Shown piece by piece: positions 6,601 to 32,903 of a stretch of 32,903 nucleotides of DNA. Each line of letters opens with the position of its first letter. The first letter of the stretch is position 1. Source of the DNA: a virus. Both the position numbers and the translations under genes were made by a program. The stretch covers positions 1 through 32,903 of the IMG/VR virus record IMGVR_UViG_3300031269_000053; one strand, written 5' to 3'. Under the pieces are notes generated by a model, which saw only the letters and a program-made list of their open reading frames with translations, searched no databases and was not told the DNA's origin.

Positions 6601-7183
6601 CAGCAGTAGCCTATCGGCGGCTGCCAACACGCTAGGTGCTGCCGTCGCTGGTTTGGGCGGCGCTATCACTAATGCTAACGCCACACAAGAGGCTGCCGAG
6701 GCTGCGGCGGCGGCAGCCTCGGCAGCCGTTGACGCCATAGAAGAAGAGCTCGACATAAACAGCCCCTCGCGTGTGTTTGCCGATATTGGCGAGATGACGA
6801 TGCTAGGTTTTGGCGAGGGGATTGTAGAGGCTGCCAACGTGCCAGTTAGTGCCATGCAAAGCATCACGAGCGCACTATCAGACGCAGCTAACGTCAATTT
6901 GTCACGCGACTTAGACATGGGCATAAGGGCGCAGGCGTCCATATCTGCCACCATGCCAAGTGCGCAAATGAACCTACTAGAAGCTGAGCAGGCAAGCCGC
7001 GAAGACTGGCTTAACCGGCAAGCCGACATAGCCCAGCGCATGGCGGCGGCTGCCGAGAAATTTGACACGGCAAGTAACACCCTTAGCTCTGGCACTGTGA
7101 GGGCGGCTGTGTCTAATGAGCGCGCCGCTAACGAGTTCGCAGGGGCAGCCCGGCAATTTGACTGGAGTCGGATACGGAAATGA
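683..7183 (+). CDS. Tail tape measure protein
   Basis: This 2,166-residue protein sets tail length and is ejected through the tail. The N-terminal ~350 residues resemble the TP901-type tape-measure core, rich in Ala/Gly helices (for example FESDMGEVFTLLPSATEQ). Hydrophobic helices follow in the middle. Residues ~950-1330 are coiled coil with about four diverged ~90-residue repeats, and the C-terminus is low-complexity Ala-rich. The motif SPSRVF occurs twice, at ~837 and ~2028. I chose the ATG at 683 because the in-frame GTG at 665 lies inside the terminator stem; the ribosome site is weak either way. At about 1.5 angstroms per residue the tail would be roughly 325 nm. The gene fills about 20% of the genome and overlaps the next gene by ATGA. 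Confidence 0.92.
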   Translation: MGNRDLEFVIGVIDQATQPLRDIEQNVSSMGDGVKRTAALMATSVATAGVALAGVAAKATASAVAFESDMGEVFTLLPSATEQAMGQMTDDVLAFSAAAGVVPSDVITPLYNAISAGVPPDNVFTFLETANQAAVGGVTDLNTAVDGLTSVVNAYGTDILSVQEASDAVFTTIRGGKTTFDELSASLFNVIPAAASLGIGIDEVGAALAAMTAQGTPTSVATTQLRQLFVKLADSGSEVGKQFGAVSGQAFPDFVAAGGTVQGALELLEDDADANGVAFRSLFSDVESMNAALLLTGTGSEIFAAQLEEQANAAGATAAAYETMQQTVGRALETLRANVDVVLIQLGQQFLPVLADFSDWVVGNLPTIQKTIQQAFDAIGTAISAGRQAWQDLQTGFEGGNAANLVQAFGVGIAKTLDATRAVIEAFGDTWQSLSDLPAIKASAALAVEIGGVAWELVQEVWAWLDSQPVQSAIQGAVKFGADIAEGAFRLAQDAWAWLDSIAGETIAEARAVFAADIPDMDKLATVGGEMVASILDGIANKLPSLLASGTQMIAQVLEGLATKLPTMIDAATATVANFIDGLGQGAQSSGIIDAARNLVSVVLTSILQASPKMLTAGVNLVAALATSLINGVASVAKAAATVAGAATAEFLGLPGWVTEAWTNAMTDLETVVTTSSATVIGIGKDFVNWILEGLATLGQAMADSGVEAINKFIDDTLGQIQARAAQVTNAITDLFGGGEAEIAQRGSSVTEEYNRALEQGLSGGEARTAAALRLMLQGAFVEGEQVAAFIGNNIGVETVAGMEMGMLGQLQGAIDAGLVVADGVEDAVKSRLGIQSPSRVFAEIGEHTMAGFINSVRDKAADAGTAAREAADAAANAFRDTLTAMSLELDLRLVEPEQLNADLTVISERLREQIVAMQAAGESGSTAYIEVGRQLQAVESQLGNVNRAIQHNADTEAAALERQREQRQRWADWATQLHDEMAATEQARYESAVRMGQVSLDEQLRYIQTRLDDERVSARARITLEEDVFNLQSQIADRLQEQQRVVHDERLNQWRERLQVEAQAAGESQRYQEALYDFGLEQGDISLAQHLDALRERLAATEAGTLDEIALLRQVADTETEINSERLATQEATQERLQAMHAEGENAWRERLQAETAAREQAAAQAQAIARAQYDFDRHTGAVSLQQHLDNLAQRLQGEQLSGEQIIAIQREIYDGEQQLAQEALARQQAIHAERANAWAGQLQAETAAREQAAEQAAEIAANQYAFELEQGDISLQSHLDNLNAQLAGTEQYSSQWVSIMGDIASTQEQMAADEEARIDAIRDANMDMLGTIADGVGSLAPVFEDMGGFASTAFDVVSGGVDNMLTALKTSETGTLSLADGFGAMAGAAASSSDIAISALGGLAQAAMSFATGDIVGGVTGVVTTAISAISGLFSRARRRAEKYRKAVETSTQALTEATEQQWENQRSNQERILELQYSSGLVSTAEYNAARLDLNEAAREQEYRSRRRELGQQFEANAAEAADEQFAQSLRLQYRYDAFNLSQAMQLDEITATSDHLATLQGMETDAGAAKIATYEAMGARVLELSRQAFDARHAGEFELARQLETERDEVSAQLDAFALDLSAGFTGLVTTITVSQEQIDGATQRLTNDFVDSLSKLSGTDATFAETAEFLDSRFESYITTTIYNMAVEAALANSVVAQNMAQLSVLIDEAVRTGDWAAVTAGVADVGAQLQDTLGQLSITVGGALEAVFDETIATSAEGAEATTDALGQSGETMAGAATDAFSSAGDAITAGAHGANDQLNSSTSELELAINASAALIESQMQLAEGTMGASADATYTALMAEIDAGTLTTADALNMSSAELQARIAEQEQNIADEFAASEAHMSGAAEGAFATTEGAVVTGAANITAALDVSQSEIAAGVEASISATNAAWEASGGQLDATINSTLTTAQTSLQTQGQALVGEANALSSSLSAAANTLGAAVAGLGGAITNANATQEAAEAAAAAASAAVDAIEEELDINSPSRVFADIGEMTMLGFGEGIVEAANVPVSAMQSITSALSDAANVNLSRDLDMGIRAQASISATMPSAQMNLLEAEQASREDWLNRQADIAQRMAAAAEKFDTASNTLSSGTVRAAVSNERAANEFAGAARQFDWSRIRK
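3590..4670 (+). repeat. Internal ~90-residue coiled-coil repeats in the tape measure
   Basis: Repeated protein blocks follow a pattern of W-x-x-x-L-Q-x-E, then QYDFELEQGDISLxxHLDNL-like, then a Glu/Gln/Arg-rich helix. Copies begin near 3595, 3845, 4125 and 4400. DNA identity is high between the copies at about 4140 and 4415 (AGCCGAGACGGCAGCACGTG in both), so the last duplication is fairly recent. Gain or loss of units would change tail length. Confidence 0.7.
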
Positions 7184-8838
7184 TCAGTTATATAGCCAGT
7201 GCTACCGTAAGCGACACCGCACCCCATTTTCTGCTTGGCAGCGTTGAGCTACCGGTGCCGGTGGGTAGCCTTATCGGTGACGTGCTTGTCGCGTGCGTTG
7301 TTATCCCCTCAGCTGAGTTTGCGAGTAGTGGTAGTAGTGGGCGTTTTTACCGTTTGCAGGCTGACGGGTGGCAAGTGCTCGAGCTCGTAGAGTTTAGACA
7401 AGGCGACGATAAAGCCGTTTTGCTGAGCTGTTACCGCGTACTCAATAGCGTGCCAACGTCGTTTACGATCACAGTCACACGTGAGGTTATCGGCGTGGCT
7501 GACGCTATTGACAACATCTCCGTGTTTGCTGCCGCGTCTTGCTACAGGGGGGTGGACAACGGTAACCCCATACAGGCTCACGATGCCGCCAAAAGTGATG
7601 ACGGTATCGCGCTTGTAGTAATCCGCCCAACGGCTACAATCATTAGCGCGACATATGGCGTTAACGTTACGGACGCCCTCACAGAGCGGGTTACGGTTGG
7701 CGATTTGCGAGTTGCTGAGGATAGCGTAGCCGTACAGGGACGCACAGCTCCCTACACACTTACGAGTGATAGTGACGACTTGGGACGGGTGGTGCTTGCC
7801 CTAAATCCGTTTTTAGCTGCGCCCGGCATTGACCCACCCCCAACGGCTGGCACGGGCGTGGGGAAACTTATTACAGACATTAATAATCCCCTCGTAGCAC
7901 AAGCCTATCGCGTGACAGGCTCAACGCTCAGCGAGGTAGCCACGCCGCGGCTGCTAGCTGTTGACGCTGCGTTCGACGCGGTGGGCGGGTGTGTGGGTGG
8001 GCTTGCAACGTTCGCACGCGACCCGCTATGGCAGCCATACACGCGGCTGTTACGAGTGAGCTACACCACAACAGCTAGCAGCCCCGTGCTGTGGTTTTCG
8101 GGCGTTTGTACGACTATTACCGACGTAGACGGGCTGTATGACGTTGAGCTGCTGCCGTTATCCGATTTGTGGCTAGACGACGCTGTGGCGTTGGCGGACT
8201 ACCCCAGCCATGCAACTATCTCAGAGACGCTAAACCTTAATAGTGGGCTCGTAGTCGACAGGCTCGCAGGCACTGTAGACGAGTGGCAGACGTGGCGGAC
8301 GTATCTTAAAAAACGTTTCGAAGGCGTAAGCGAGGTGACATATGGGGTAGGTGCTGATGGGCGATACATACAGGGGCGCCCACAAGACGCCGTGCCGTTA
8401 GTGCTAGACGCTCGACGTTACCCAGATAGCCAACCCAAAGGCATAAATCTCACACCCTACGTCTCGGCATGGTTTGGCACGCCAACCGATACAACCGACC
8501 CCGTAACGAGCAGTGCCGAGCGTGATGACCTGCCAGCGCTAGCACCGCGCCGGGTTGAGTCTGCCGGCGAAGGGGGTAGTGGCTACATAGCCCCCGACGG
8601 GTTTGGGTTGCCCTTTTCCGAACCAAGCTCATACGTCATCAACATCCCGGACGCGCTCATTATCCCCCCCTTGCAAGTTGCGAACCTACCCAACGGCGAG
8701 ACCCAGTATGTAGCAGGCAGCCGTGTCAAAATAGAGGTGGATAGTGGGGGTGGCGCGAGCCTTATGAGTAGCATCCGGACGCGTACAATACCCTATGCAG
8801 GGACGCGACAGCGTGACAGATTAGGGAGGTTTGTGTAA
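7180..8838 (+). CDS. Tail-tip / baseplate-hub-like protein
   Basis: This 552-residue protein lies directly downstream of the tape measure, where siphoviruses encode distal-tail and hub proteins. Residues ~1-215 form a beta-rich domain containing GDVLVACVVI and SCYRGVDNGNPI, the layout of a beta-sandwich seen in various phage and surface proteins. A Pro-rich linker (PPPTAGTGVG) near 225 leads to a second beta-rich half with LLRVSYTT, WFSGVCTTITDVDGLYDVEL and a beta tail. No catalytic motif was seen. It starts within the ATGA overlap. Hub function is inferred from position and architecture only. Confidence 0.55.
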   Translation: MISYIASATVSDTAPHFLLGSVELPVPVGSLIGDVLVACVVIPSAEFASSGSSGRFYRLQADGWQVLELVEFRQGDDKAVLLSCYRVLNSVPTSFTITVTREVIGVADAIDNISVFAAASCYRGVDNGNPIQAHDAAKSDDGIALVVIRPTATIISATYGVNVTDALTERVTVGDLRVAEDSVAVQGRTAPYTLTSDSDDLGRVVLALNPFLAAPGIDPPPTAGTGVGKLITDINNPLVAQAYRVTGSTLSEVATPRLLAVDAAFDAVGGCVGGLATFARDPLWQPYTRLLRVSYTTTASSPVLWFSGVCTTITDVDGLYDVELLPLSDLWLDDAVALADYPSHATISETLNLNSGLVVDRLAGTVDEWQTWRTYLKKRFEGVSEVTYGVGADGRYIQGRPQDAVPLVLDARRYPDSQPKGINLTPYVSAWFGTPTDTTDPVTSSAERDDLPALAPRRVESAGEGGSGYIAPDGFGLPFSEPSSYVINIPDALIIPPLQVANLPNGETQYVAGSRVKIEVDSGGGASLMSSIRTRTIPYAGTRQRDRLGRFV

Positions 8839-13666: not shown

Positions 13667-13983
13667 TTTTACTAGTGGTGCTGATGTTGGTGGTGTTACA
13701 CGCGGCATTCTGGAGTCTCGAGCAGCACACACGATTAGAAGCCGTTTTGCTCATTTGCCTTACTTTGCTCGCACTTACACTGATCGCTGGGGTCGCGATA
13801 TGTCGGGGCGCCGCAACCCCAGAACCACCCAACACAACCCGCGATCTAATTGCTGTCGTTTCTGCAGGTTGCTTTCATACTGCCATCCTCTCGCAGACGC
13901 CACCCCCGGTGGTGTTATTTTTTGCCCCAAAAGTTGCCATAAACCAAGGCGCTTTTAGGGCGTTTTTGCCCTACCCAAACTAA
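13663..13983 (+). CDS. Small two-helix membrane protein (holin candidate)
   Basis: Starting at the GTG that overlaps the preceding stop (GTGA), the product is about 106 residues. It has two hydrophobic segments, ILLVVLMLVVLHAAFW (~2-17) and AVLLICLTLLALTLIAGVAI (~26-45), joined by a short polar turn, which is the shape of a class II holin. The C-terminal half is Pro-rich and ends in the repeat region, so the true stop may be recent. A GTG at 13615 would add 16 polar residues. Confidence 0.5.
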   Translation: MILLVVLMLVVLHAAFWSLEQHTRLEAVLLICLTLLALTLIAGVAICRGAATPEPPNTTRDLIAVVSAGCFHTAILSQTPPPVVLFFAPKVAINQGAFRAFLPYPN

Positions 13984-14140
13984 CACAGTTTCACTAACCC
14001 AAACTAACACTGTGTCACTAACCCAAACTAACACAGGTTTACTAACCCAAACTAATCCTGTGTTAGGGGGGGGATAATCCTGCGTTAGGGGGGGGGTAAT
14101 CCTGTGTTAGTTAGGGGGGTAATCCTCTGTTAGTTAGGGT
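13973..14140. repeat. Iteron-like array with inverted G-run units; candidate replication origin
   Basis: ACCCAAACTAACAC or a close variant starts at 13973, 13997, 14021 and 14045, an exact 24-bp period. It is followed by four units starting TAATCCTNNGTTAG at 14053, 14075, 14097 and 14120, with G runs of 8, 9, 6 and 3. CTAACACAGG and CCTGTGTTAG are inverse, so the two halves can pair, and one more inverted copy lies at about 14202-14216. Iterons next to early replication genes are typical of phage origins; the role is inferred. Confidence 0.55.
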
Positions 14141-14726
14141 ATTTTAGACAAATTGCCATTTGGCACGTGACAGACGACAAAAACCCCAAATAGCCTAAGT
14201 GACACAGGATTACCCTAATGGAAGTACTTAATTACCAGTCTATTGAATTACCAGTTGAATAGAGATCCGATTCGCTACAGAGTCAGGGGGAAATTTTGGT
14301 TTTGCCCTCGGGGGAAATTTTGGTTTTGCCCTCGGGGGTATGCTCGGTTTGCCCTCGGGGGAAATTTTGGTTTTGCCCTCGTAGGTATGCTCGGTTTGCT
14401 AGCGATTTGGCTAACGTTTGCCGTCACTGATTTTGAGATGTTCCGCGGCGTTTCACAAAAAGCAATAATTAGCAACGCGTCAATTGTGGGTAGGTTATCG
14501 GCTGCTATTTTGGCGTATGCGCATTGTGAGCCGTTTTAAGGCACGCCCAAACTCGCAAACGTGCAGATATACCCAAAAGCATCTTACAAGCCCGTTTATG
14601 GGGCTTGTGGTTTAAATGGCGGCATATTGTGGGGGTGCTCGTGTGGCGAGTTTGTGGGTGTTGGCTTGGTTAGGTTTGCCAAAACAGACAATAAGCCCGT
14701 GCTAGACGCTCGACATCCCAAAGGGC
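14141..14726. other. Long intergenic stretch without a convincing gene
   Basis: Apart from the 24-bp repeats, this holds only doubtful ORFs. One is 98 codons from a TTG at 14243 that reads through the repeats, giving GKFWFCPRGKFWFCPRG then a hydrophobic stretch. Another is 63 codons from a GTG at 14561. Neither has a ribosome site. A hairpin ACAAGCCC/GGGCTTGT lies at 14586-14608 without a following T run. The stretch ends at the first early promoter. Confidence 0.5.
14286..14403. repeat. 24-bp tandem repeat (GGGGGAAATTTTGG type)
   Basis: Five units run head to tail: three nearly identical 24-bp units starting GGGGGAAATTTTGG and ending TTTTGCCCTC (14286, 14310, 14357), and two 23-bp variants with TATGCTCGG (14334, 14381). 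The mixed 24/23 lengths break any single reading frame, so this is probably not coding. It may be part of the origin region or a protein-binding array. Confidence 0.85.
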
Positions 14727-14755
14727 TTGACAGACCAGTAGAGAGATGTTAAGAT
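14727..14755 (+). promoter_or_regulatory. Sigma70-type extended -10 promoter, early block, copy 1
   Basis: TTGACA (14727-14732), a 17-base spacer and TAAGAT (14750-14755) preceded by TGT make a consensus -35 with an extended -10. The core and flanks match copies at 15099 and 15869 almost base for base, starting from AAGGGCTTGACAGACCAG. It drives the first small gene at 14858. Confidence 0.8.
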
Positions 14756-14857
14756 TAGCCAATACCAAGTAGGGAGAACGGGTATTAGATTGAGAGGTTG
14801 GTTTTGCAAGTTTATGCGCCAGATGCGAAAAATATTCATGAAGACAAGGGAGATAAT

Positions 14858-15079
14858 GTGATCGAGTGGCGTAGCCCAACAACTAACGACTGGCAAAGTT
14901 TGCTCGAGCCGCTGAAAGACCGTCCCAACGTATGGGCAGCCGTGGCAAAGTATGGGACATCAGGCAGCGCACGTTCTACTGCGCATCAGTTACGTAACGG
15001 CGCATACCGTACCCCGGCCGGGCGCTATCAGTACCGCTCGAGTAAGGGCGAAGTCTTCGCCCGTTACCTAGGCGAGTAA
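14858..15079 (+). CDS. Small basic protein, unknown (possible DNA-binding)
   Basis: The chosen GTG at 14858 follows AAGGGAGAT, matching the AAAGGAGAT ribosome site used by the following genes, and gives 73 residues. Upstream TTG starts (14798) would add 20 residues without such a site. The sequence has Trp-rich helices (WQSLLEPLKDRPNVWAAVAKY) and a basic C-terminal half (QLRNGAYRTPAGRYQYRSSK). The pattern resembles small proteins common in phage early regions. No function is assigned. Confidence 0.6.
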   Translation: MIEWRSPTTNDWQSLLEPLKDRPNVWAAVAKYGTSGSARSTAHQLRNGAYRTPAGRYQYRSSKGEVFARYLGE

Positions 15080-15098
15080 GTCAAAAGTAAAAAAGGGC

Positions 15099-15127
15099 TT
15101 GACAGACCAGCAAAGATATGTTAGGAT
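15099..15127 (+). promoter_or_regulatory. Sigma70-type extended -10 promoter, early block, copy 2
   Basis: TTGACA (15099-15104), 17 bases, then TAGGAT (15122-15127) with TG-T just before. The transcript would start near 15134 and carry a short leader with the GGGCTG/CAGCCC hairpin and an AAAGGAGAT ribosome site. Confidence 0.8.
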
Positions 15128-15144
15128 TAGTCAATACCAAATAA

Positions 15145-15162
15145 GGGCTGCATTAACAGCCC
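15145..15162. promoter_or_regulatory. Leader hairpin, copy 1
   Basis: GGGCTG-CATTAA-CAGCCC lies 5-6 bases upstream of the AAAGGAG ribosome site. The same 18 bases recur at 15583, 15915 and 16299 in front of four consecutive genes. A leader hairpin next to a ribosome site may stabilise the mRNA or modulate translation. Confidence 0.7.
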
Positions 15163-15180
15163 ACCCAAAGGAGATTTACC

Positions 15181-15525
15181 ATGAAAAGCCACAACCCGAA
15201 CAACTACGAAGTAACACACGGCAGCCTGCTACATACTGGGTCTCGCCGTACCCACAACCCGAACGATTACGAAGTAACTGCGAAAGATCACCTTGTCAGT
15301 CTTGACAAGCAATCCAACCTAGAGGCGTGGACTATTACCACCCCCGACGGCGACAAGCTGGTCATATCCGTTGCCGTGAACCACATGAGAGGGATCGGCT
15401 TTAGCACCACCGACTGGCGGGGTCCGCAGCCGCGGACGTTTGACGAGATCCGGAATTACGACTGGGTAAGCTTTGATGGTCAGGGCGTCATCTTACCCTT
15501 TGGGATGTCGACCTTGTTTGTGTAG
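15181..15525 (+). CDS. Early paralogous family protein 1 (N-terminal duplication)
   Basis: This 114-residue product belongs to a three-gene tandem family whose core is HNPNDYEVTAKD, LEAWTITTPDGDKL, GFSTTDW and a final DY-x-W pair. In this copy the opening block HNPN[N/D]YEVT is duplicated (residues 4-11 and 25-32). It has a strong ribosome site and its own promoter and leader hairpin. The proteins are small, acidic and soluble with no known motif. The early location suggests host takeover or anti-defence, which is only inference. Confidence 0.75.
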   Translation: MKSHNPNNYEVTHGSLLHTGSRRTHNPNDYEVTAKDHLVSLDKQSNLEAWTITTPDGDKLVISVAVNHMRGIGFSTTDWRGPQPRTFDEIRNYDWVSFDGQGVILPFGMSTLFV

Positions 15526-15537
15526 ACCTACCCGCAC

Positions 15538-15561
15538 AGCCGGGGGCTCCCCCCCCCGGCT
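15538..15561. terminator. GC-rich hairpin module, copy 1
   Basis: AGCCGGGGG (15538-15546) pairs with CCCCCGGCT (15553-15561) over a C-rich loop. No T run follows on the + strand, so classical termination is doubtful. It may instead act as a pause or processing site. A near copy is at 16256-16277. Confidence 0.5.
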
Positions 15562-15582
15562 CAACCGAACAAAAATAAAAAA

Positions 15583-15600
15583 GGGCTGCATTAACAGCCC
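15583..15600 (-). terminator. Leader hairpin copy 2; intrinsic terminator on the - strand
   Basis: GGGCTG-CATTAA-CAGCCC is preceded on the + strand by AAAAATAAAAAA. Read on the - strand, the hairpin is followed by TTTTTTATTTTT, a textbook terminator tail. On the + strand it is the leader of the gene at 15619. Confidence 0.65.
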
Positions 15601-15618
15601 ACCCAAAGGAGATTTACC

Positions 15619-15858
15619 ATGAAAAGCCACAACCCGAACGACTACGAAGTAACCGCGAAAGATCGCCTTGCTAGTCTTGACGGGCAATCCAGCCTAGAGG
15701 CATGGACTATCACCACCCCCGACGGCGACAAGCTGATCATATCCGTTATCATGGACCACATGAGCGGGGTCGGCTTTAGCACCAGAGACTGGCAAGAAGC
15801 GCAACCGCAAACGGTTGGCGAGATCCAGGATTACGGCTGGGTCGGCTTTTTCCTGTAG
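15619..15858 (+). CDS. Early paralogous family protein 2 (minimal copy)
   Basis: This is a 79-residue copy of the family, with one HNPNDYEVTAKD block, LEAWTITTPDGDKLIISV and GFSTRDWQ, and a shortened C-terminus (GWVGFFL). Its DNA is highly similar to 15235-15440 of copy 1, pointing to recent duplication. It has no TTGACA promoter of its own but carries the GC-hairpin plus leader-hairpin module and AAAGGAGAT. Confidence 0.75.
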   Translation: MKSHNPNDYEVTAKDRLASLDGQSSLEAWTITTPDGDKLIISVIMDHMSGVGFSTRDWQEAQPQTVGEIQDYGWVGFFL

Positions 15859-15868
15859 ACCAAAGGGC

Positions 15869-15897
15869 TTGACAGACCAGCAAAGATATGTTAGGAT
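15869..15897 (+). promoter_or_regulatory. Sigma70-type extended -10 promoter, early block, copy 3
   Basis: TTGACA (15869-15874), 17 bases, TAGGAT (15892-15897). About 80 bases from AAGGGCTTGACAG to the ribosome site are essentially identical to the 15095-15175 copy, so promoter, leader and gene were duplicated as one unit. Confidence 0.8.
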
Positions 15898-15914
15898 TAG
15901 TCAATACCAAATAA

Positions 15915-15932
15915 GGGCTGCATTAACAGCCC
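15915..15932. promoter_or_regulatory. Leader hairpin, copy 3
   Basis: The same GGGCTG-CATTAA-CAGCCC hairpin lies in the leader downstream of promoter copy 3, ahead of the ATG at 15950. Confidence 0.7.
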
Positions 15933-15949
15933 ACCCAAAGGAGATTCAT

Positions 15950-16234
15950 ATGAAAAGCTACAACCGCCACAACCCGAACAACTACGAAATAATCGCGAAA
16001 GATTGTCTCGCTAGCGTTAACGACCAAGTCAGCCTAGAGGCGTGGACCATTATCACCCCTGACGGCGAGACACCGACCATATCCGTCGTTATGTACCATA
16101 AGGACGAGATCGGCTTTAGCACCACCGACTGGCAAGGGTGGCAGCCGCGGACGGTTGACGAGATTCAGGATTGCTACTGGGTAGATTTTGATGGCGGGTC
16201 AGCCGTCTGGTCAGAAGAAGGCTTACCCACCTAG
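15950..16234 (+). CDS. Early paralogous family protein 3 (most diverged copy)
   Basis: This is a 94-residue family member with HNPNNYEIIAKD, LEAWTIITPDGETP, IGFSTTDWQGWQPRTVDEIQD and an acidic tail (SAVWSEEGLPT). It is more diverged than the other two, and the changes keep the Trp, Gly and DW positions, so the protein seems to be under selection. The ATG at 15950 follows GGAGATTCAT. Function unknown. Confidence 0.75.
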   Translation: MKSYNRHNPNNYEIIAKDCLASVNDQVSLEAWTIITPDGETPTISVVMYHKDEIGFSTTDWQGWQPRTVDEIQDCYWVDFDGGSAVWSEEGLPT

Positions 16235-16255
16235 TTTGCATAGGTCTACCCGCAC

Positions 16256-16277
16256 AGCCGGGGGCTCCCCCCCGGCT
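16256..16277. terminator. GC-rich hairpin module, copy 2
   Basis: AGCCGGGGG (16256-16264) pairs with CCCCCGGCT (16269-16277). Flanking bases CTACCCGCAC and CAACCGAACAAAAATAAAAA match the module at 15528-15582. The copies differ by two C residues in the loop. Confidence 0.5.
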
Positions 16278-16298
16278 CAACCGAACAAAAATAAAAAA

Positions 16299-16316
16299 GG
16301 GCTGCATTAACAGCCC
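16299..16316 (-). terminator. Leader hairpin copy 4; intrinsic terminator on the - strand
   Basis: The same hairpin with AAAATAAAAAA before it gives a T-rich tail on the - strand. On the + strand it sits just before the ribosome site of the gene at 16336. Confidence 0.65.
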
Positions 16317-16335
16317 ACCCAAAGGAGATAACGTG

Positions 16336-16524
16336 ATGTTAACACAACCCGCCTCACAACATACGAACCTACCCTGGCAACGCGTCCGCAACCGCATCAA
16401 TGGGCGCGAAGGGATGGTACTCGCGGTGACACAAGACGCAGTCCGCGTGTTATGGGATGATGCCAAAAACGTCGAAGACGTTGCCTCAAGCATCCTAGAT
16501 ATCGTCAACGAGGTACGCCCGTAA
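16336..16524 (+). CDS. Small SH3/KOW-like protein, unknown
   Basis: A 62-residue product, starting at the ATG 8 bases after AAGGAG (the GTG at 16333 is slightly too close). The central part, VRNRINGREGMVLAVTQDAVRVLWDD, has the Gly-Val-hydrophobic strand pattern of a small SH3/KOW-like barrel, followed by a short helix. Such barrels bind nucleic acid or protein. It shares the leader module of the paralogous family but not its sequence. Confidence 0.6.
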   Translation: MLTQPASQHTNLPWQRVRNRINGREGMVLAVTQDAVRVLWDDAKNVEDVASSILDIVNEVRP

Positions 16525-16534
16525 CAAAAACGAA

Positions 16535-16554
16535 CGCGCATATACACATGCGCG
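16535..16554. promoter_or_regulatory. Hairpin upstream of the gene at 16589
   Basis: CGCGCAT (16535-16541) pairs with ATGCGCG (16548-16554) over a 6-base loop. It occupies the place held by the GGGCTG hairpin in the previous genes, ahead of AAAAGGAGATAACCC. It has a different sequence but the same layout. Confidence 0.5.
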
Positions 16555-16588
16555 CCGTCAGTAGTCACCCACCAAAAGGAGATAACCC

Positions 16589-16915
16589 ATGTTAATACAT
16601 TCGCGGATTAAAGGCAAGCTCATCACCCAACTCATTAACGCGCTCGACAGCGCCGACATGGCAGATTTTGACGTAGCAGCCGCCAATATCGCAGCGCAGT
16701 TTGTCGACTACGACACGCCAATAGTAGGCGTGGCGCTCAGCATCCCCCAACAGCTCACTAACGCTGCGATATTGTTGCGTAACACGTGGGGTATATCACT
16801 GGGTACAACACGCGCAAAGCAAGGCGCTCGACATGTGTTTATCTGCGCCGAGTTAATGCCAGACGCACCCCAGTTAGACGCAGCCGAGGCAAAACGCGAG
16901 CTCACTTATGCCTGA
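16589..16915 (+). CDS. Early small protein, unknown
   Basis: A 108-residue soluble protein with a strong AAAAGGAGAT ribosome site. It is helical with Ala-rich segments and contains a probable strand (HVFICAELMPD) near residue 85. It overlaps the next gene by 8 bases. No family recognised. Confidence 0.6.
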   Translation: MLIHSRIKGKLITQLINALDSADMADFDVAAANIAAQFVDYDTPIVGVALSIPQQLTNAAILLRNTWGISLGTTRAKQGARHVFICAELMPDAPQLDAAEAKRELTYA

Positions 16916-18044: not shown

Positions 18045-18244
18045 CGCACCTTGTTATTTTTAGTTCCAACGCCGATTACTTGACCGACGCCGTTGCTAGC
18101 CTTAATAAGCATTATGATGACTGGGCAAACGACACCATTAACGTCGTGAGCGTACAAACCACCCACCAAACCGTTATTAATTCCGCTGGTAACGTGGAAT
18201 ATCATTTTTTGACCCTTACAATTACCTACACCCTTGTCGGCTGA
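18041..18244 (+). CDS. Small protein, unknown
   Basis: 67 residues from the GTG that overlaps the previous stop (GTGA). It is mostly beta with TITYTLVG at the end. The last bases (CACCCTTGTCGGCTGA) are repeated at the end of the truncated HTH gene at 18682, because the module duplication begins here. Confidence 0.55.
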   Translation: MTHLVIFSSNADYLTDAVASLNKHYDDWANDTINVVSVQTTHQTVINSAGNVEYHFLTLTITYTLVG

Positions 18245-18666
18245 CAAAACCAAGCGGCTCGTGCGCTGCGATTACTGCGCAGCACGAGCCGCCCTAGAGC
18301 TTGATGGGGAGTTAACCACCCGTCAGTACTATGAGTAGCCAACCCAATACCAACCCACTAAACCGAAAAGGTGAGAATGTTTACACACATAAAAATCGCG
18401 TTTGATCTCGACATCCCCAGCAGCGAAAAACTCGTACTCATTGCCCTTTCCTGCCACGCAGACGCCGAGGGGGCATGTTACCCAAGTATCAGTCGGCTGG
18501 CACAAGACACGAGCCTCACGACTCGCACCGTTACCCGTTGCGTTGGGATGTTATCACGGCGAGGGCTTATAGAAAAGCGCGCCCGCTCAACACCGCAAGG
18601 GCGCACGAGTAACAGTTACACTTTGCGTTTAGGACAGCAAAGTGTAACTGACGACACCCAAACCGT
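18229..18666 (+). repeat. Tandem duplication, unit A (zinc ribbon + HTH N-terminus, decayed)
   Basis: Unit A matches unit B (18667-19215) at high identity but is 111 bp shorter, through a deletion in the zinc-ribbon gene. Both start CACCCTTGTCGGCTGACAAA and both end in GACGACACCCAAACCGT. The CACC at the junction is shared microhomology. Confidence 0.85.
18234..18338 (+). pseudogene. Truncated zinc-ribbon gene copy
   Basis: A 34-codon remnant whose first 31 residues nearly equal those of the intact gene at 18672 (CDYC motif kept). It then hits TAG after a 111-bp deletion that removed the second Cys cluster. It cannot form the four-Cys site and is probably a non-functional leftover of the duplication. 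Confidence 0.7.
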
Positions 18667-18682
18667 CACCCTTGTCGGCTGA
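18377..18682 (+). CDS. Truncated HTH replication-initiator-like paralogue
   Basis: 101 residues from the ATG after AAAAGGTGAGA. It is nearly identical to the N-terminal ~95 residues of the gene at 18926 (FDLDIPSSEKLVL, ACYPSISRLAQDTSLTTRTV, LSRRGLIEK), a winged HTH of the HTH_36 kind. It ends with LVG copied from the upstream gene's end. It keeps the DNA-binding domain and lacks the C-terminal region, so it could act as a competitor or regulator at the same sites, or be a by-product. Confidence 0.65.
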   Translation: MFTHIKIAFDLDIPSSEKLVLIALSCHADAEGACYPSISRLAQDTSLTTRTVTRCVGMLSRRGLIEKRARSTPQGRTSNSYTLRLGQQSVTDDTQTVTLVG

Positions 18683-19215
18683 CAAAACCAAGCGGCTCGT
18701 GCGCTGCGATTACTGCGCAGCACGAGCCACCCTAGAGCTTGCTGGGGAGTTAACCACCCGTCAGATTTTCGAGACATACGGCTGGGATGTGTATGTAACC
18801 CTACGTTGCCGCAGCCTATGCCCAGACTGCGCCCGAGGCGCGATAGCTGGTGGATACGTGCGTGCCGAGTTTCGTAACGGGCGTAAGTTTGGCGAACGCC
18901 AACCCACTAAACCGAAAAGGTGAGTATGTTCACACACATGAAAATCGCGTTTGATCTCGACATCCCCAGCAGCGAAAAACTCGTACTCGTTGCCCTTTCC
19001 CGCTACGCAGACGCCGAGGGGGCATGTTACCCGAGTATCGCCCGATTGGCACGAGACACGAGCTTCACGACTAACACCGTTACCCGTTGCGTTGGGATGT
19101 TATCACGGCGAGGGCTTATAGAAAAGTGCGCCCGCTCAACATCGCGAGGGCGCACGAGTAACAGTTACACTTTGCGTTTAGGACAGCAAAGTGTAACTGA
19201 CGACACCCAAACCGT
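18667..19215 (+). repeat. Tandem duplication, unit B (intact)
   Basis: This is the intact copy: the whole zinc-ribbon gene plus the HTH domain of the full-length initiator-like gene. See unit A at 18229-18666. Confidence 0.85.
18672..18923 (+). CDS. Zinc-ribbon protein
   Basis: 83 residues from a TTG at 18672 that overlaps the preceding stop; GTG 18699 is an alternative start. CDYC (~12-15) and CRSLCPDC (~46-53) give a four- to five-Cys zinc ribbon. The C-terminus is basic (RNGRKFGERQPTKPKR), fitting nucleic-acid binding. It overlaps the spacer of the next gene and is probably translationally coupled to it. Confidence 0.6.
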   Translation: MSADKTKRLVRCDYCAARATLELAGELTTRQIFETYGWDVYVTLRCRSLCPDCARGAIAGGYVRAEFRNGRKFGERQPTKPKR

Positions 19216-19702
19216 CACCGACACACATAGCCGTCTACCACGCGAAAACAACGAGTTAGCCATCCTAGAGACAAAACCCGTTGAACGTCAACGGAAACCC
19301 GATTATGACGCGTTTAAAGATTACTGGAATGCAGTCATACCGCCTCACTGGTCTCAGTGCATACAAATCACAGACACTCGCCAGCGCCTTATTAAACAGC
19401 TCTATGAAGATGTTGGCGTTGAGGCTGCGTTTGGCGTGTTTACGGCTGGTGTCGGTTTTTGTGTCAATGACAGATGGTGGCGCGGAAAGGACGGCATAAG
19501 CATCGAAAACATCATGAGCAACGGCAAACTCGTAGGTTTGGCGGAAAGACAGCAAACAAAACAAGCAAAAGACGCACGTGCACCATCTACCGACCTAGCC
19601 GCCTTGTTAGCAGATGACGTGACTGGGCAGCAAGGCGCACGTGTTACCGCTCCATCTAACGACCTAGCCGCCTTGTTAGCAGATGACTATGGACACAACT
19701 AA
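18926..19702 (+). CDS. HTH replication-initiator-like protein
   Basis: 258 residues from the ATG after AAAAGGTGAGT. Residues ~1-95 form a winged HTH of the HTH_36 type found in DnaD/O-like phage replication proteins. A linker follows, then a helical domain (~125-210: YDAFKDYWNAVIPPHW through KDGISIENIMSNG) as in primosomal proteins. The C-terminus repeats DLAALLADD twice. Placed ahead of a DnaC-like loader, it likely binds the origin and recruits the loader and host helicase. The HTH assignment is fairly sure; the initiator role is inferred. Confidence 0.7.
   Translation: MFTHMKIAFDLDIPSSEKLVLVALSRYADAEGACYPSIARLARDTSFTTNTVTRCVGMLSRRGLIEKCARSTSRGRTSNSYTLRLGQQSVTDDTQTVTDTHSRLPRENNELAILETKPVERQRKPDYDAFKDYWNAVIPPHWSQCIQITDTRQRLIKQLYEDVGVEAAFGVFTAGVGFCVNDRWWRGKDGISIENIMSNGKLVGLAERQQTKQAKDARAPSTDLAALLADDVTGQQGARVTAPSNDLAALLADDYGHN
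19583..19687 (+). repeat. 36-bp direct repeat at the end of the initiator-like gene
   Basis: 19583-19618 and 19652-19687 are 36-bp copies with one mismatch, 69 bp apart in frame. They encode PS[T/N]DLAALLADD twice. The second copy supplies the start codon of the next gene (GCAGATGACTATG). Confidence 0.85.
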
Positions 19703-20123
19703 GGGTTTGGGACGCGTTTCCCGAGGTAGCCGCGTGAGCATTGTTGGGGACGACATGAACCGCGAAAGGCGCATTGAGCACGCCAACGCGTTGGTTGGGT
19801 GCATTGCTAGTTGTGGTCGTAGATTCCTTGACGGTGACCCCGTTGCTCGCATCTACTGTGATAACCGGGGTCATCCGTGGTTTGTGGACGGATACACACA
19901 AAAACATATTTATTTGTATTACCCCAGATGGGGAGGTCAGCAGGGGTTTTCGCAAGGTGGGACTTTGAGGGAGTTGGTCAATCAGTTGAAAGAATGGATT
20001 ATTGGCAATCGTGCGTTCGTTAGTCGTGGAGTGTTTCAACACTGGGGTTACGGCGCTGACATGCAGATTGTGCTTGATGAAGCCGTTCGACTAGGCATTT
20101 TGGGGGATGACAGTGGGAATTAG
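19683..20123 (+). CDS. Conserved-looking phage protein, unknown
   Basis: 146 residues from the ATG at 19683, which overlaps the previous gene by 20 bases. MNRERRIEHANALVGCIASC at 19755 may be the real start, since the conserved-looking part begins there. It contains GRRFLDGDPVARIYCDNRG, WFVDGYTQKHIYLYY and WGYGADM. It is probably a small alpha/beta domain in the replication operon. No catalytic motif was recognised. Confidence 0.6.
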   Translation: MTMDTTKGLGRVSRGSRVSIVGDDMNRERRIEHANALVGCIASCGRRFLDGDPVARIYCDNRGHPWFVDGYTQKHIYLYYPRWGGQQGFSQGGTLRELVNQLKEWIIGNRAFVSRGVFQHWGYGADMQIVLDEAVRLGILGDDSGN

Positions 20124-22984: not shown

Positions 22985-23211
22985 CCCTGCCAAGTGACGG
23001 CAGCGTGCGCGTTGAAATTGACGGAGACTGCACGTGGGGTGGACTCACGCCGCGCACGTTTTACTACAACAAAGACTATAACGGCAGTGCACCAACGGAG
23101 TACCAAGCCAGACGTGCTGTGTTGCTGTCGGTGCTCGAGCACCTTACTAAGGACACGGCAGCAATCAAGCAAGAATTGTTTTCTCTCGAGGGAGAAAACC
23201 ATGTTTGCTGA
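22933..23211 (+). CDS. Small protein, unknown
   Basis: 92 residues with a strong TTTAGGAGG ribosome site. Mostly beta in the first half (RVEIDGDCTWGGLTPRTFYY) and a helix at the end (RRAVLLSVLEHLTKDTAAIK). It is the last gene before the late promoter. No family recognised. Confidence 0.65.
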   Translation: MPFEIKENDSGMPYEQLTLPSDGSVRVEIDGDCTWGGLTPRTFYYNKDYNGSAPTEYQARRAVLLSVLEHLTKDTAAIKQELFSLEGENHVC

Positions 23212-25394: not shown

Positions 25395-26987
25395 ATGTTG
25401 AGAACCGAAATGCGCAAAACCTACACCCTCCCCCCCACTCGCGTGCTATCCCAATGGACACCCTCGGCAGTACGCAACGCACTACGAGATTTGCAGGTGG
25501 GCAACTTTGACCGCGCCGCCTATCTGTGGGATGCAATCATGGGCGATGATCGTGCTACCGCTGTTATGAGCACACGTGTTAACGGGTTACTCGGCTGCCC
25601 CTTGGATTTTGAGCCAGGCAGCCTCTACAATCCCCTCGCCAAAAAGGTAAGTGAAACGCTCGAGCTCGACTACTGGGATATATGCCCAGAGTCCCAAATG
25701 GACGCCCTCATGAGTTACGGGCGTGGTTTAGGCGTGGCATTAGCTGAGCTACGTTGGTCACGTCGCGATAGTCGCGTTGTGCCTAGCCTATACATTTGGC
25801 ACCCTAGCCATATCCGCTATGACGAGTTTCGCGACGCGTGGCACGTCATGACGCGTGAGGGTGAAACACAGATCGAACCCAACGGCGGCAAGTGGGTGCT
25901 GTATCGTCCCTATGGCTCACAGTTTGCAGGCGCGCGCACCCTTGTACGCGCCCTTGCCATCCCCTGGCTTGTAAAAACGTACGCCATACAAGACTGGGCA
26001 AGGCATAGCGAAAAACTAGCGGGTGTTATTAAGGGCAAAACACCACCCCAAGTGACAGATGACCAACGCGATGAGTTTATCGGTGACCTCGCAAACCTAG
26101 GCAATAGCGGCGTGGTGGTACTACCCGAGGGCTGGGATGCCGAGCTATTAGAGGCGAGTGCCCACTCATACGAAGCGTTTGAAGGACTCGTTAGCTGGGC
26201 AAACACCGCCATGGCTGTGGCAGTCTTGGGGCAAAATCTCGCCACCGAGACAACGGGCGGTAGCCTCGCCGCCGCCAAAGCACAAGAGCTTGTAAGACAG
26301 GATTACAAACAGGCAGACGCCGAGGGGATTGCCACCCTGTTACATGACGGCGTTTTTGGGCACTGGACGCGGCTCAACTTTGGCGACGTCACGCTCACAC
26401 CGTGGGCAACTTACAACACAATCCCAGAGACCGAGCAAATGGCAGGCGCCGAGACGCTACTCACACAAGCCGACGCTCTCAGCAAACTCAAGGCGTTAGG
26501 CGCTGGGGTAGACGTGAGTGCCATGCTCGAGCGTTTTGGCATCCCTTGGTCAAGAGTCGAGACGCTACCTCCACCCGTTGAGCCACAGCCCCCAGTTACT
26601 GAGGATGGTGACGCCGGGGAGCTCGAGCCCGGCGATATACCCGGCGAAGATGAGCAACCCGTTACCCAGTCCGTTACCCTTGCAAGCAATGACAACGCAG
26701 TCGGCGCGGCAGGGTTTGTTACTGGGCAGTTATATGTAGACAGTCTCGGCGACGTGGCAGCCAAACAAGGCGCTGCGGTGTTTGCTGGCTACACTCAACA
26801 GGTACTTGCAACTATCGCCAGCGCACAAGATTATGACGATCTGCGCCGTAAGCTGCGTAACTTATACCGAGACAGCGAGCCTAGCGAGTTTGCTCAACTT
26901 ATAGAGCGCGCCCTCATCCTTAGTGCGATGGCTGGGCAGCTAGCAGTACGCGACGACGCGCCCGAGGTTAATAATGTGGGCAGCTAG
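25395..26987 (+). CDS. Portal protein (Mu gp29-like, DUF935)
   Basis: 530 residues with GGGGGAGA upstream. DUF935 features are visible: RNALRDLQVGNFDRAAYLWD, MGDDRATAVMSTRVNGLLG, YGRGLGVALAELRW and LVKTYAIQDWARHSEKLAG. FATETTGGS-like sequence appears as LGQNLATETTGGSLAAAKAQ. An acidic Pro-rich segment (~395-420) precedes a helical end. It forms the dodecameric DNA channel at the head vertex. It overlaps the minor head gene. Confidence 0.92.
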   Translation: MLRTEMRKTYTLPPTRVLSQWTPSAVRNALRDLQVGNFDRAAYLWDAIMGDDRATAVMSTRVNGLLGCPLDFEPGSLYNPLAKKVSETLELDYWDICPESQMDALMSYGRGLGVALAELRWSRRDSRVVPSLYIWHPSHIRYDEFRDAWHVMTREGETQIEPNGGKWVLYRPYGSQFAGARTLVRALAIPWLVKTYAIQDWARHSEKLAGVIKGKTPPQVTDDQRDEFIGDLANLGNSGVVVLPEGWDAELLEASAHSYEAFEGLVSWANTAMAVAVLGQNLATETTGGSLAAAKAQELVRQDYKQADAEGIATLLHDGVFGHWTRLNFGDVTLTPWATYNTIPETEQMAGAETLLTQADALSKLKALGAGVDVSAMLERFGIPWSRVETLPPPVEPQPPVTEDGDAGELEPGDIPGEDEQPVTQSVTLASNDNAVGAAGFVTGQLYVDSLGDVAAKQGAAVFAGYTQQVLATIASAQDYDDLRRKLRNLYRDSEPSEFAQLIERALILSAMAGQLAVRDDAPEVNNVGS

Positions 26988-32712: not shown

Positions 32713-32903
32713 ATGGGATCACTAGCACGTACACTCAAGCGGACTGTCCAAAAGCGGCAGACATTTTTGCTCGAGGCTGAAGGCGCGCCAACCTTAACGG
32801 GACGCATTAGAGCAGTTAAACTCGGCGACACACTACGCACAACGGGGGCGGCTACGTCCCCATATGCTGCCATTTTTGAGGGGCGCGCCTCAGCTGAGGA
32901 GCG
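32713..32903 (+). CDS. Tail assembly chaperone (gpG-like), 5' part before the circular junction
   Basis: This is the beginning of the gene finished at 1-482; bases 32777-32903 are the duplicated overlap. The ATG at 32713 follows a GGGGAG ribosome site 9 bases after the tail-tube stop codon. Joined, the product is 181 residues, starting MGSLARTLKRTVQKRQTFLL. The assignment rests on position (directly after the tail tube, before the tape measure) and on the overlapping downstream frame typical of lambda G/GT-type chaperones. No sequence-level family match was recognised. Confidence 0.7.
   Translation, partial: MGSLARTLKRTVQKRQTFLLEAEGAPTLTGRIRAVKLGDTLRTTGAATSPYAAIFEGRASAEE
32777..32903. repeat. 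Terminal direct repeat (circular-assembly overlap), right copy
   Basis: This is an exact copy of bases 1-127. Removing one copy gives a circle of about 32,776 bp and restores a 181-codon reading frame across the junction. Confidence 0.95.

Follow-up and report, generated by a model that had tools for sequence, protein, structure and literature searches.

What does a stretch of about 2 kb, in which near-identical promoters and leader hairpins alternate with small genes, do for a phage, and how did it arise? We addressed this in the virus contig IMGVR_UViG_3300031269_000053, whose 32,903 bases make up the window throughout. The first and last 127 bases are identical (1-127 = 32777-32903); therefore, the contig is a complete genome with a circular map of 32,776 bp. 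The phage is unclassified. Its head genes are of the Mu/B3 type, with the major head protein, protease and portal families present, and its large terminase is 37-39% identical to those of Sinorhizobium, Microcystis and B3 phages. The genome also encodes a tape-measure gene, an O-like replication initiator and a DnaC-type helicase loader, and the Rfam and tRNA scans are empty. Just upstream of the block lie two iteron-like arrays of 22-24-bp repeats (13973-14136 and 14286-14399), which may be a replication origin or a control region.

The order within the block (14720-16915) is P1-a-[P2-L1]-b1-[GC-L2]-b2-[P3-L3]-b3-[GC-L4]-c-[L5]-d (Table 1). The initial annotation had counted six small genes, and for each of the six ORFs, only its own frame scores as coding; the middle three are paralogues, so that the genes belong to four families (a, b, c and d). 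It had also described unrelated genes as sharing the same control modules, which holds in part: gene a (14858) has the promoter P1 upstream and lacks a leader hairpin, gene c (16336) has the leader L4 and lacks a promoter of its own, and neither has the full module.

Table 1. Promoters, leaders, hairpins and genes of the block, in positions of the window.
Feature	Position	Strand	Remarks
Promoter unit P1	14720-14768	+	-35 at 14727-14732, -10 at 14750-14755, extended TG; 44/49 identical to P2/P3
Gene a	14858-15079	+	73 aa, basic (pI 10.0), phrog_2660 (unknown function)
Module P2+L1	15092-15176	+	-35 at 15099, -10 at 15122-15127, leader hairpin 15145-15162, Shine-Dalgarno
Borders of P2 promoter unit	15093 and 15143	+	AAGGGCT
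Gene b1	15181-15525	+	114 aa, b family
GC hairpin 1	15538-15561	+	9-bp stem, then A-rich linker CAACCGAACAAAAATAAAAAAG
Leader L2	15581-15613	+	no promoter; hairpin 15583-15600 and Shine-Dalgarno
Gene b2	15619-15858	+	79 aa, acidic (pI 4.4), b family
Module P3+L3	15862-15946	+	identical to P2+L1 over 85 nt
Gene b3	15950-16234	+	94 aa, acidic (pI 4.1), b family
GC hairpin 2	16256-16277	+	9-bp stem, then A-rich linker as after GC hairpin 1
Leader L4	16297-16329	+	no promoter; hairpin 16299-16316 and Shine-Dalgarno
Gene c	16336-16524	+	62 aa, unrelated to b; weak phrog_23375 match (E 0.005)
Leader L5	16535-16583	+	different hairpin 16535-16554, then CCCACCAAAAGGAGAT
Gene d	16589-16915	+	108 aa; phrog_35517 (unknown function, E 0.001)

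The three near-identical TTGACA/17/extended -10 promoters reported previously are indeed present. They read TTGACA-17-TAAGAT/TAGGAT with TGn before each -10 and start at 14727, 15099 and 15869, and the pattern TTGACA-N14-TGNTANGAT occurs three times at up to one mismatch against 0.05 occurrences expected from shuffling. P2 and P3 are identical over 49/49 nt, including the 17-nt spacer and flanks, whereas P1 matches both at 44/49 and is an older copy. Since the promoters arose by duplication, their resemblance adds no independent support for promoter activity. We take P1-P3 to be host-sigma-type promoters, with the sigma specificity assumed. The reading that we favor, at a probability of roughly 60%, is that the block forms the promoter-proximal end of an early operon, in which such promoters are combined with 5' leader hairpins serving mRNA stability or translation and which was enlarged by tandem duplication. 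The extended -10 promoters would then fire at phage entry, with transcripts from P2 and P3 starting near 15134 and 15904, about 12 nt before the leader hairpin, and that from P1 near 14762. The block probably serves as an early control array, and early timing fits its position, directly behind the iteron-like region and ahead of the O-like initiator and the DnaC-type loader. Also in favor of this reading, a promoter-like TTGACA/17 site lies ahead of the terminase small subunit and is shared by the near relative L006 described below.

The leader is the second repeated part. The 33-mer AAGGGCTGCATTAACAGCCCACCCAAAGGAGAT, which comprises the hairpin and the Shine-Dalgarno sequence, is found without mismatch at 15143, 15581, 15913 and 16297 (0 expected), confirming the four leader-hairpin copies noted before; the two GC hairpins noted with them are also found. 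A fifth, partial copy, L5, precedes gene d (16589); it is homologous to the 3' part of L1-L4 and retains the CCCACC(C/A)AAAGGAGAT half, while its hairpin differs. The leader hairpin is GC-rich, has 6 bp and folds at -11.4 kcal/mol (z about -2.5), with the Shine-Dalgarno and AUG open; the two joints of GC hairpin and leader are more stable than shuffled sequences, with z values of -3.7 and -3.2. The hairpin may shield the 5' end from decay and support uniform, strong translation by leaving the Shine-Dalgarno and start codon single-stranded. Before b2 and c, where the 9-bp GC hairpin and a single-stranded A-rich linker precede an internal leader, the arrangement could be a processing or stability joint of the mRNA (3' protector, cut site and 5' protector) or a partial terminator. 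The former reading draws on phage mRNAs that have structured leaders and are processed by RNase E: in T4 gene 32, a structured leader lies upstream of the ribosome site, and intercistronic processing sites set mRNA stability (PMC3014915). The block would share the structured leader before the ribosome site and the processing joints between cistrons; however, it has neither the pseudoknot nor gp32 autoregulation, and a role of RNase E is suggested by the A-rich linker only.

Read on the minus strand, the leader hairpin has a 7-bp stem; two of the four sites, where TTTTTTATTT comes next, resemble good intrinsic terminators, so the role of the hairpin may differ from the one proposed above. The main rival for the hairpin itself is that the leader hairpins mainly terminate leftward (antisense) transcription and insulate the early operon, and the gene d hairpin likewise reads as a minus-strand terminator (16556-16533). 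However, the two promoter-linked copies have the weak tail TTATTTGGTA, the recognized genes of the window are all on the plus strand, and the conservation continues through ACCCAAAGGAGAT up to the Shine-Dalgarno, which makes sense on the plus strand only. We regard antisense termination as the main role as very unlikely. A further candidate, in which the leader hairpins act as N4-type hairpin promoters, was rejected: no phage RNA polymerase is recognized, and a complete sigma-70 consensus is found upstream of the hairpin.

Regarding the origin of the array, the duplication in the block is real. Paralogous genes and repeated flanks stand in direct orientation, as in tandem gene amplification: P2 and P3 are 770 bp apart, P2-L1 and P3-L3 are identical at 85/85 positions, and protein identity to b2 is 71% for b1 and 62% for b3. 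The cassette amplification proposed in the initial annotation is thus supported. Of nine plus-strand AAGGGCT copies in the record, seven fall inside the block, where they lie at the head of every promoter unit and all four full leaders; thus, P2 is a 50-bp unit between two AAGGGCT repeats, and P3 is a 50-bp unit with the same direct repeats as borders. In silico removal of the P2 unit with one repeat yields CAAAAGTAAAAAAGGGCTGCATTAACAGCCC, and the promoterless L2/L4 read CAAAAATAAAAAAGGGCTGCATTAACAGCCC, a match of 17/18 in the linker; no other 18-mer in the genome matches this linker at 15/18 or better. With its direct repeats as borders, the promoter unit would be cleanly removable. At the other end, module identity stops at the Shine-Dalgarno and the gene sequence diverges directly after it (GGAGATTTACCATG, GGAGATTCATATG and GGAGATAACGTGATG), which would place the junction of gene and module just past this site.

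The modules and the genes differ markedly in divergence. Between b1 and b3, 5/19 fourfold sites differ and 169/222 core bases are shared, and fourfold-site divergence among the b genes ranges from 3/23 to 6/18 (13-33%). At the b1-b3 fourfold rate, 85 neutral sites would all remain unchanged with a probability of about 5e-12. Thus, the modules are strongly constrained or homogenized by recombination, apart from the genes, and recent copying is favored, since the promoter spacer and the hairpin-to-Shine-Dalgarno spacer, where point constraint is usually weak, are also identical. The block would have grown as tandem copies arose and the repeated modules recombined. A bolder version, which we consider distinctly unlikely, is that the promoter-leader module is a gene-capture device of the phage lineage, with recombination-homogenized modules as homology arms, exchange just past the Shine-Dalgarno and the promoter as a removable 50-bp unit; if true, any small gene could be swapped under an optimized early promoter and leader.

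Are the duplicated genes themselves under selection? The b proteins share invariant positions (W, HNPN and a TTPDG-type motif), and dN/dS among the b genes is about 0.4-0.9, depending on pair and method. This weak constraint fits fast-evolving host-interaction genes and relaxed duplicates equally. For b1-b2, dN/dS is 0.6-0.9 and the mismatches are spread evenly over codon positions (11/13/13), so these duplicated genes may be under little selection. The array may then be debris, that is, recent and nearly neutral tandem copies of a promoter-leader-gene unit, with b1 and b2 dispensable and nothing to be learnt from them about host takeover. Elsewhere in the genome, a second partial tandem duplication (18350-18649 versus 18899-19198) includes a truncated copy of the initiator, and the tape-measure gene has internal repeats, both consistent with this explanation. 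Against it, all b ORFs are open with coding bias in their own frame, b1 keeps its reading frame through a net insertion of 63 nt, dN/dS is below 1 for b2-b3 and b1-b3, and the invariant positions are retained. On balance, we consider debris unlikely and keep the early operon as the preferred reading.

Within the early operon, the small acidic b proteins would most probably act on a host target, which is the weakest step of the proposal. The b family has no match above cut-off in PHROGs, Pfam, NCBIfam or PADLOC. Its AlphaFold model has a mean pLDDT of 66.5 (low confidence), and the best PDB matches of this low-confidence model are to portions of Nudix enzymes (E 0.09; none below E 0.001). We describe b as an orphan small-protein family and a candidate for host interaction. 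The role in host takeover or anti-defence that the initial annotation had suggested is possible but unsupported: known defence and anti-defence families give no PADLOC, NCBIfam or Pfam match above cut-off, a comparison that would miss a new family; b1-b3 have no homologues among the phages, plasmids and viral contigs searched, and the predicted fold has no match. Lytic phages such as SPO1 carry early host-takeover modules, which are arrays of small genes with strong promoters and ribosome sites. The block resembles these modules as an array of small, presumably early genes with strong promoters and ribosome sites, but it is much smaller and no homologous proteins were found. The search of other phages that had been suggested for the module gave no relative of the module, the leader or the block proteins, b1-b3 included, in the viral contigs, phage records and plasmids searched, a set that may omit very near records. 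No orthologous block was found in any relative.

The closest known system in kind is the ESAS/SAS of Cluster K mycobacteriophages. These are repeated intergenic elements of ~50 bp with a SigA-like promoter of 17-18 bp spacing; they precede unrelated non-structural genes, and the SAS start-site sequence also occurs without the promoter (PMC3203893, PMC11373665). The block likewise has a repeated sigma-70-like promoter with a spacing in this range that adjoins a conserved start element containing the Shine-Dalgarno. It is also confined to non-structural genes, is common to unrelated families and has some genes with the start sequence alone. However, the 13-bp SAS GGGATAGGAGCCC has no match at up to two mismatches, and the 17-bp imperfect inverted repeats of ESAS are absent from the block, which has only the 6-bp leader hairpin. 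In ESAS, the 17-bp repeat overlaps the promoter, whereas in the block the inverted repeat forms a perfect RNA hairpin within the transcribed leader; its copies are clustered within 2 kb by tandem duplication, whereas ESAS/SAS are dispersed. The module would work in a similar manner to ESAS/SAS and appears convergent with it, but it is unrelated in sequence and not a member. The inverted repeats of the ESAS promoter are thought to bind a regulator (PMC11373665). By analogy, P1-P3 could be a co-ordinately repressed regulon in which the conserved flanks, identical together with the 17-nt spacer in P2 and P3, serve as operators for a phage repressor. The promoter units contain no inverted repeat of at least 7 nt and no integrase or repressor is recognized among the ORFs scanned, and we consider this reading very unlikely. 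If the early operon works as proposed, the module would be a compact natural expression cassette of promoter, stabilizing leader and ribosome site, and its DNA could be used to find early accessory genes in relatives. It would also illustrate an evolutionary route by which phages could collect small early genes under one control unit.

Separately from the duplication, the genome contains short inverted tracts. Positions 15216-15249 of the b1 insert are an inverted copy (33/34) of 8693-8726, in gene 7180-8838 of the tail region; the tract keeps the reading frame, is flanked by two copies of the b start motif and does not occur in b2 or b3. Over these 34 nt, an early b1 transcript would run antisense to gene 7180-8838. 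In the portal gene, 25617-25644 is an exact 28-nt inverted copy of 6808-6835 in the tape-measure gene. The near relatives by terminase are short fragments only, L006 and L007 (from metagenomes IMG 3300031216 and 3300031215; 95-96% DNA identity), and at the portal tract they have nine different bases between the same 8-9-nt flanks and lack the 28-nt copy. Thus, in this lineage, a distant template in inverted orientation probably served to replace a short stretch of the portal gene. Among 12 clusters of at least three mismatches between the window and L006/L007, four have an exact ectopic match of at least 13 nt that contains the whole cluster (28, 16, 14 and 13 nt), against ~0.4 expected from random spans, and inverted matches in order-3 Markov genomes did not exceed 16 nt. 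Short-patch illegitimate recombination and template switching are known in bacteria, and the tracts resemble their products. No further templated tracts were found among the paralogue differences, and a 16-nt inverted match of 15496-15511 to 14710-14725 (E 0.02) was set aside as too weak to build on.

The partial tandem duplication at the initiator (18224-18764 and 18350-19219) gives a truncated 103-aa copy of the O-like initiator ahead of the full 260-aa gene, and each copy contains a long hairpin. At 23198-23201 of the window, L006 has an additional ~1 kb ahead of the terminase small subunit (L006:719-1761); this stretch includes a homologue of window gene 19683-20123 in a new location, together with an internal repeat, and is an accessory-gene site.
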